Shown here: positions 1 through 1,705 of the stretch, piece after piece
Layout: every line of letters starts with the position of its first letter
Position numbering within the stretch: the stretch's first letter is position 1
NCBI GenBank assembly: GCA_021780225.1
Contig: JAJXZF010000026.1
Coordinates: 62,001-126,000 of the forward strand
Direction: 5' to 3'
Source of the DNA: Deltaproteobacteria bacterium
GTDB lineage: Bacteria > Desulfobacterota > Binatia > Binatales > Binataceae
DNA length: 64,000 nucleotides
The notes under the pieces: generated by a model
What the model was told of the DNA's origin: nothing
Seen by the model: only the letters and a program-made list of their open reading frames with translations
The model's database searches: none
Made by a program: the position numbers and the translations under genes

Positions 1-541
1 AAATGTTGTTGATATCAAGCAGGATCGCGCAGTCGGCCGCGTCGGCCACCGCCGCGACGAATTCCCATTCGGCCATCGATGACGCCGTATAGGTCAGGTA
101 AGACGAAACGTTCTCGATCGCGATTCGCCGTCCCAGGATGTCCTGCGCGGTACGGAGGCGCCCGGCCGTGTACGCGACCGTCTCCTCCGTGAAGGGCATC
201 GGCATCAGGTCATGCAGATTGCGCCCGGCCGCTCCCGTCCAGCATAGATGATCCGAAATCCAGGCCGGCTCGATCCGCCGCGCCAGCTCCGCCAGTTGAC
301 GCAGATAGTCGCGATCGAGCGGATCTGTCGAGCCGATCGAAAGCGACACGCCATGCATCACGACCGGATAATTCGCGCGCACGCGCTCCAGCGTCTTGAG
401 CGCCGGTCCGCCCGCGACCATGAAATTCTCGGAGACGATCTCGAACCAATCCATCCGCGGCCGCCCGCCGGCGACCTCGGCGTAATGCGGCCGGCGCAGA
501 CCGGCGCCGTAGCCTAAAAATGGGAATTCCGCGCGTTCCAT
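1..541 (-). CDS. DUF692 / multinuclear non-heme iron oxidase (MNIO, BufB-like), C-terminus truncated by window edge
   Basis: Manual reverse translation from ATG at 541: MERAEFPFLGYGAGLRRPHYAEV...VMHGVSLSIGSTDPLDRDYL...ISDHLCWTG...RRIAIENVSSYLTYTASSMAEWEF...CAILLDINNI; IENVSSY and LLDINN are DUF692 signatures. Not in the ORF track because it runs off the window. Confidence 0.88.
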   Translation of the reverse strand, partial: MERAEFPFLGYGAGLRRPHYAEVAGGRPRMDWFEIVSENFMVAGGPALKTLERVRANYPVVMHGVSLSIGSTDPLDRDYLRQLAELARRIEPAWISDHLCWTGAAGRNLHDLMPMPFTEETVAYTAGRLRTAQDILGRRIAIENVSSYLTYTASSMAEWEFVAAVADAADCAILLDINNI

Positions 542-622
542 CGCGCCGCCAACTCATCGATTGGCGACGGCCCGGCCATCGCCGCACGAAGCCCGGGCCG
601 TCACCAGACGCGACATTCTGGA

Positions 623-892
623 CTAGTGGACCGGATGGCCGCTCTTGGCGACGCAATCCTTGACGCTCGCCGTGGTAATCCAACCTTTTCCCTTGCAGGA
701 ATTTTGACCTTTGCAACTGTTGCCCGCGCTCTTGCAGGAGCTATGACCCTTGCAACTGTTGCCGCCGATGCATTTCACGCTCGCCGGAACGCCCTGACCG
801 CTTTTGTCGGCCGCTATCGCGGGCTGCGCCGCGAACATCAAACCGACAATTGTCGCCATCGCCGCTCCAGTCGCCACTTTGCAATCCATCAT
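623..892 (-). CDS. Small secreted Cys-rich protein, bufferin-like RiPP precursor
   Basis: Signal peptide (MMDCKVATGAAMATIVGLMFAAQPAIA) followed by CIGGNSCKGHSSCKSAGNSCKGQNSCKGKGW...C repeats; directly upstream of DUF692; RBS-like aagaggaggcag before ATG. Confidence 0.8.
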   Translation of the reverse strand: MMDCKVATGAAMATIVGLMFAAQPAIAADKSGQGVPASVKCIGGNSCKGHSSCKSAGNSCKGQNSCKGKGWITTASVKDCVAKSGHPVH

Positions 893-1126
893 ACTGCCTC
901 CTCTTACGCTTGCTCAACTACGACGGCCGCATGGCCGCCGCTCGTCGAACTTAACCTATCCGCCGGCGCAAATCCAAGCGCGCTTTTCGACTCGGCCACC
1001 GCCCGCATCTTCTCCACTCCAACTGCCATCGCCAGTCGGCCCGACTCGCGTTTCGGACGTGCGGGAACCTTTCTCACTCCATTAGGATTTGTATCGAAGC
1101 GGGTGCTATGTTCGTCTTCCCTGCAT

Positions 1127-1705
1127 ATGACGCGCAAAAGCGGCACGGCGACAGACAGGCGCCTCGCTTTCGAGCGGGAGGCGATGCCTCACCTCGACGC
1201 CGTCTATTCGACGGCGCTGCGTCTGGCGCGCAATCCCGACGACGCCAACGACCTGACTCAGGAGACCATCCTCCGCGCGTACCGGTACTTCGACCAATTC
1301 GCCTCCGGCACCAATTGCCGGGCGTGGATGCTGACGATTCTCTACAATATTTTCCGCAACGCCTGGCGCCGCGGGGAGCGCGAACAACCGGCGGCTACGC
1401 CCGAGGAATTCGACGCCGAAATCGAAGCGCACAGCCGCGCCGCGGACCAGTCGCGAATCAATCCGGAAGCGTTGCTCTTGAACCGCACCGCAGGCCGGCG
1501 GATCGAGTTGGCGCTGAACGCGCTGCCGGCGGAATTCCGCGAAGCGCTGATTCTCGTGGATGTGCAGGAGTTGAATTATCAGGAGGTCGCGACGGTGCTG
1601 AACGCGCCGCTCGGCACCATCAAATCGCGCGTCTCGCGCGGACGGGCGCTGATGCGCAAGGCGCTGTGCAGGCTCGATCAGGCGCGCGGAAAAACGGGTA
1701 CTTGA
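1127..1705 (+). CDS. ECF-type RNA polymerase sigma factor
   Basis: MTRKSGTATDRRLAFEREAMPHLDAVYSTALRLARNPDDANDLTQETILRAYRYFDQF...NYQEVATVLNAPLGTIKSRVSRGRALM: sigma-70 regions 2 and 4. The ORF extension to 626 is probably not coding. Confidence 0.92.
   Translation: MTRKSGTATDRRLAFEREAMPHLDAVYSTALRLARNPDDANDLTQETILRAYRYFDQFASGTNCRAWMLTILYNIFRNAWRRGEREQPAATPEEFDAEIEAHSRAADQSRINPEALLLNRTAGRRIELALNALPAEFREALILVDVQELNYQEVATVLNAPLGTIKSRVSRGRALMRKALCRLDQARGKTGT

Follow-up and report, generated by a model that had tools for sequence, protein, structure and literature searches.

A Buf2-type bufferin operon in a Binataceae genome and its divergent ECF sigma/anti-sigma gene pair

We identified a complete bufA2-bufB-bufC operon at the start of the window, by which we mean the whole 64,000-nucleotide stretch of DNA analysed here (starting at G000:C109:62001). 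The locus is a further example of a large, known family and has a canonical core peptide. Taken together, the data make us highly confident that this is a Buf2 bufferin operon for an exported peptide that would be modified by its enzyme and would chelate copper, probably under the control of an ECF sigma factor and an anti-sigma factor encoded divergently from it. The regulatory context is probably a lineage-specific variant.

Gene content and proposed product of the operon

The bufA2 gene (positions 623 to 892, reverse strand) encodes the Cys-rich precursor of 89 amino acids that the initial annotation had described, and its reading of the locus as a bufferin system with an MNIO enzyme was borne out by matches over the cut-off to NF050166, NF050167 and PF05114. 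In a profile search against NCBIfam, the peptide matched NF050166 (Cu_RiPP_BufA2) with a score of 70.9 bits (cut-off 60) and an E-value of 7.8e-20, and the match is therefore not due to chance. The bufB gene for the MNIO enzyme was located directly downstream, after a gap of 81 bases. Its 5' part covers positions 1 to 541 of the reverse strand, where the frame at 2 to 541 represents the first 180 codons of a 288-amino acid protein, while 326 bases lie past the window edge, with the gene running on to G000:C109:61675. The full-length gene is found at L002:9675-10541 of the source contig (L002 positions equal window positions plus 10000), and the full protein scored 360.1 bits against NF050167 (MNIO_BufB; cut-off 310) and 352.9 bits against PF05114 (cut-off 25), in agreement with the DUF692 assignment made earlier from the partial frame. 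The scores against the ApyH, MbnB and ChrH models were far under their cut-offs.

The bufC gene was located directly downstream of bufB, just outside the window (G000:C109:60833-61678; L002:8833-9678), and overlaps it by 4 bases. It encodes the DUF2063 partner that the initial annotation had proposed to look for (PF09836, 53 bits, cut-off 27.2). With this partner and the DUF692 match both present, the sequence-level grounds that the initial annotation had named for its own refutation do not hold. A DoxX gene, proposed as a further neighbor, was not part of the cluster, and the only PF07681 match in the genome was located on another contig. DoxX is not a universal companion of bufferin clusters. 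Genome-wide, the source genome contained a single BufA2 gene and a single MNIO gene.

In an alignment of 64 MNIOs, residues H63, H98, E143, D176, H207, H222, E249, and D251 were invariant. D251 aligns with the proposed catalytic base of the MNIOs and is directly followed by D252, a column at which 48 of the 64 sequences contained Asp. An Asp that replaces FonB-Phe250, beside the proposed catalytic Asp, has been reported for Cys-Lys MNIOs (Gadgil et al. 2026, PMC13097082).

The precursor starts with a presumed Sec signal peptide of approximately residues 1 to 27, for which Lys5, a run of hydrophobic residues and a cleavage-like site (AIA-AD) were noted by eye, and which contains an extra Cys at residue 4. 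The presumed signal is followed by a core with 6 Cys at residues 41, 47, 53, 60, 66, and 80, of which 4 (C47, C53, C60, and C66) are followed by Lys. An alignment inspected by eye indicated that the core pattern CxGxNSCKGxxxC...CKGxNSCKG recurs in relatives labelled as Acidobacteria, Alpha-, Beta-, and Deltaproteobacteria. A 2021 study of Antarctic soil (PMC8692599) had already described a gene for a six-Cys precursor followed by genes for DUF692 and DUF2063 proteins.

Bufferins contain thiooxazoles formed from Cys and sequester periplasmic copper (PMC12452194). In Buf1, a disulfide links the first and the last Cys, and the central Cys are modified. By analogy with these characterised relatives, we infer that the product of bufA2 would be exported via Sec, and that BufB, a multi-iron oxidase, would act with BufC to oxidise Cys to 5-thiooxazoles before export. 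The residues most likely to be oxidised are the 4 Cys-Lys residues, whereas C41 and C80 would probably be paired in a disulfide as in Buf1. The mature peptide would chelate copper in the periplasm.

The divergent sigma/anti-sigma pair

A gene for an ECF sigma factor (positions 1127 to 1705, forward strand) was located divergently from bufA2; the initial annotation made no mention of this gene or of its anti-sigma partner. The protein matched TIGR02937 with 75.2 bits (cut-off 42.9), and PF04542 and PF08281 were also matched over their cut-offs. The next gene on the same strand (positions 1804 to 2751) encodes an anti-sigma factor with an N-terminal zinc domain (C3, H30, C34, and C37), one presumed transmembrane segment and a C-terminal domain of about 180 amino acids. 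The anti-sigma factor scored 25 bits against PF13490 (zf-HC2; cut-off 22.2), a model matched by all 16 of its homologs, and the 4 zinc-domain residues were invariant in 16 anti-sigma sequences, as was C279 of the C-terminal part. The C/H/C/C pattern fits a zinc anti-sigma domain, and the N-terminal part matched the RsiW structure by sequence (E-value 1.6e-6). The predicted model had a mean pLDDT of 75 and a pTM of 0.51, and a Foldseek search with it yielded weak matches to MucB and RseB (best E-value 0.0027, TM-score 0.22 by query), so that we take the apparent likeness of the C-terminal domain to these proteins as a lead only.

The pair was located divergently from bufA within approximately 1 kb in 18 of the 30 BufA2-carrying genomes of the family; at one further locus (L103), the sigma factor was matched only weakly. 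All but one of the 18 precursors next to the pair contained 6 Cys. In the loci compared from other groups, this sigma gene was not found near the MNIO gene.

The window contained a single copy of GGAACCTTT (positions 1064 to 1072, forward strand), an ECF -35-like site that faces the sigma gene and is common to close relatives. The motif GGAACY faced the sigma gene in 12 of 17 sigma-bufA intergenic regions (1.6 expected) and bufA in 7 of them (1.8 expected), with expectations from 300 first-order Markov resamplings and with the qualification that the 17 sequences are related and so do not represent 17 independent cases. In the source genome, the strict ECF pattern (GGAAC/T, 14 to 19 bases, then CGT, GTT, GTC or TGA) had no match upstream of bufA in either direction, and no clean motif facing bufA emerged when upstream regions from the 5 nearest genomes were aligned. 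Because the only such site in the window is the sigma-facing GGAACCTTT, the case for autoregulation of the sigma factor is stronger here than the case for its direct control of bufA.

From the synteny and the promoter-like sites, we lean towards the view that Buf2 operons in this lineage have an ECF sigma factor of their own, together with a C/H/C/C anti-sigma factor in the membrane. The latter protein, with its presumed periplasmic, weakly RseB/MucB-like C-terminal domain, would sense envelope, thiol or metal stress, and bufferin production would respond to it. The sigma factor, held by the zinc-domain anti-sigma factor at the membrane, would under such stress probably activate both itself and the operon. 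A less probable, though still serious, alternative is that the pair is an unrelated neighbor that does not regulate the bufferin operon. It would fit with the absence of the pair beside BufA2 in 12 of the 30 family genomes, with the failure to find a bufA-facing ECF site in the source genome and with the Buf2 clusters in the available part of the 2025 survey (PMC12452194), which were without sigma genes. However, the divergent layout persists across genera, with anti-sigma identities down to 35%, the pair stays next to bufA in G003 and G004, whose loci have lost bufB and bufC, and the bufA-facing GGAACY motif is enriched over expectation. If the pair does control the operon, its conservation points to a possible switch for Buf2 peptides in this lineage, with the anti-sigma factor as the candidate sensor.

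Class of the core peptide and variants in related genomes

The initial annotation had suggested that the spacing and number of the CKG repeats could define a different core-peptide class. A new class was rejected on the score of the peptide over the BufA2 equivalog cut-off; moreover, the 6 Cys are as in Buf2 and the core is common to relatives of several phyla. As judged from the sequence, the Cys-Lys-Gly repeats follow the pattern already known from Buf2 or the "Cys-Lys captophorin" group. Membership in Buf1 was likewise rejected, as DUF2282 (PF10048) had no match across the source genome. It is highly improbable that the MNIO modifies a non-bufferin CKG-repeat peptide by a different chemistry or to serve a different metal: the CKG units are regularly spaced, the MNIO superfamily spans several chemistries, and gold, mercury or other metals are conceivable given that published MerC fusions suggest that some bufferins act beyond copper, but the enzyme also passes the BufB equivalog cut-off, the ApyH, MbnB, and ChrH scores are far below their cut-offs, and D252 of the enzyme is the signature of the Cys-Lys group.

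Directly downstream of bufC is a gene for a predicted tandem GNAT acetyltransferase of 397 amino acids (L002:7575-8768, reverse strand). The protein was 59% to 94% identical across 16 relatives, in many of which it is encoded near bufA2, and all 16 homologs had at least a weak GNAT match. A sequence search against the PDB gave no match, whereas the predicted fold matched tandem GNAT enzymes (best E-value 3.4e-13). Further downstream on the same strand are genes for an RPE65-type carotenoid oxygenase (L002:6025-7578), which recurs near bufA2 in G003 and G004, and a DUF4149 protein (L002:5501-5968), which matched CopD below the threshold and recurs near bufA2 in these 2 genomes and several others.

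The 2 nearest relatives, G003 and G004, have kept bufA2 (L078:7263-7535, reverse strand, and L079:7085-7435, forward strand), the sigma/anti-sigma genes and the GNAT gene, but have no bufB or bufC in the interval from bufA2 to the GNAT gene. Both genomes encode an MNIO and DUF2063 pair elsewhere (L108 and L109), and these MNIOs group with other paralogs of the family rather than with BufB of the window. Upstream of the second MNIO gene are small open reading frames (L108:7088-7369 and L109:7495-7848, both on the reverse strand) that end in tandem SSCKGH repeats and contain 4 or 5 Cys. They score under or near the edge of BufA2 and possibly represent a divergent precursor. Relatives that contain bufA2 and the regulators in the absence of local bufB and bufC genes raise the question of whether the peptide can act without modification or is a substrate of an enzyme from another locus.

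It was also noted that the BufA2 proteins of L081, L082, L084, L087, L091, L092, L093, L103, L106, L107, and L110 are five-Cys variants, in which a PGPG or AGPG stretch includes the replacement of the fourth Cys, as in TATSPGPGQNSC. Nearly all of these loci were without an adjacent sigma/anti-sigma pair.

Comparison with known systems

The locus resembles the Buf2 clusters (Buf_6/12Cys, BufA2; NF050166/NF050167; Antoine et al. 2025, PMC12452194) in the six-Cys BufA2 precursor, BufB, the DUF2063 partner and the bufABC gene order, but differs from them in that DoxX is not in the cluster. It also differs in the divergent ECF sigma/anti-sigma pair, which is the less ordinary part of the locus; in its available part, the 2025 survey (PMC12452194) places sigma genes in Buf1 but not in Buf2 clusters. 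With the Cys-Lys group of captophorins (Gadgil et al. 2026, PMC13097082), the locus shares several NSCKG-type Cys-Lys motifs, the DUF2063 partner and the Asp after the proposed catalytic Asp, and the core shows no visible difference, a likeness known here at the sequence level. A sigma/anti-sigma pair beside an MNIO/DUF2063 operon is also found in the Buf1 (DUF2282) clusters with a sigma factor and an NrsF anti-sigma factor, as in Caulobacter. However, the precursor examined here is a BufA2 protein in a genome that lacks DUF2282, and the anti-sigma factor has zf-HC2 as its sole Pfam match, whereas that of Buf1 is NrsF.
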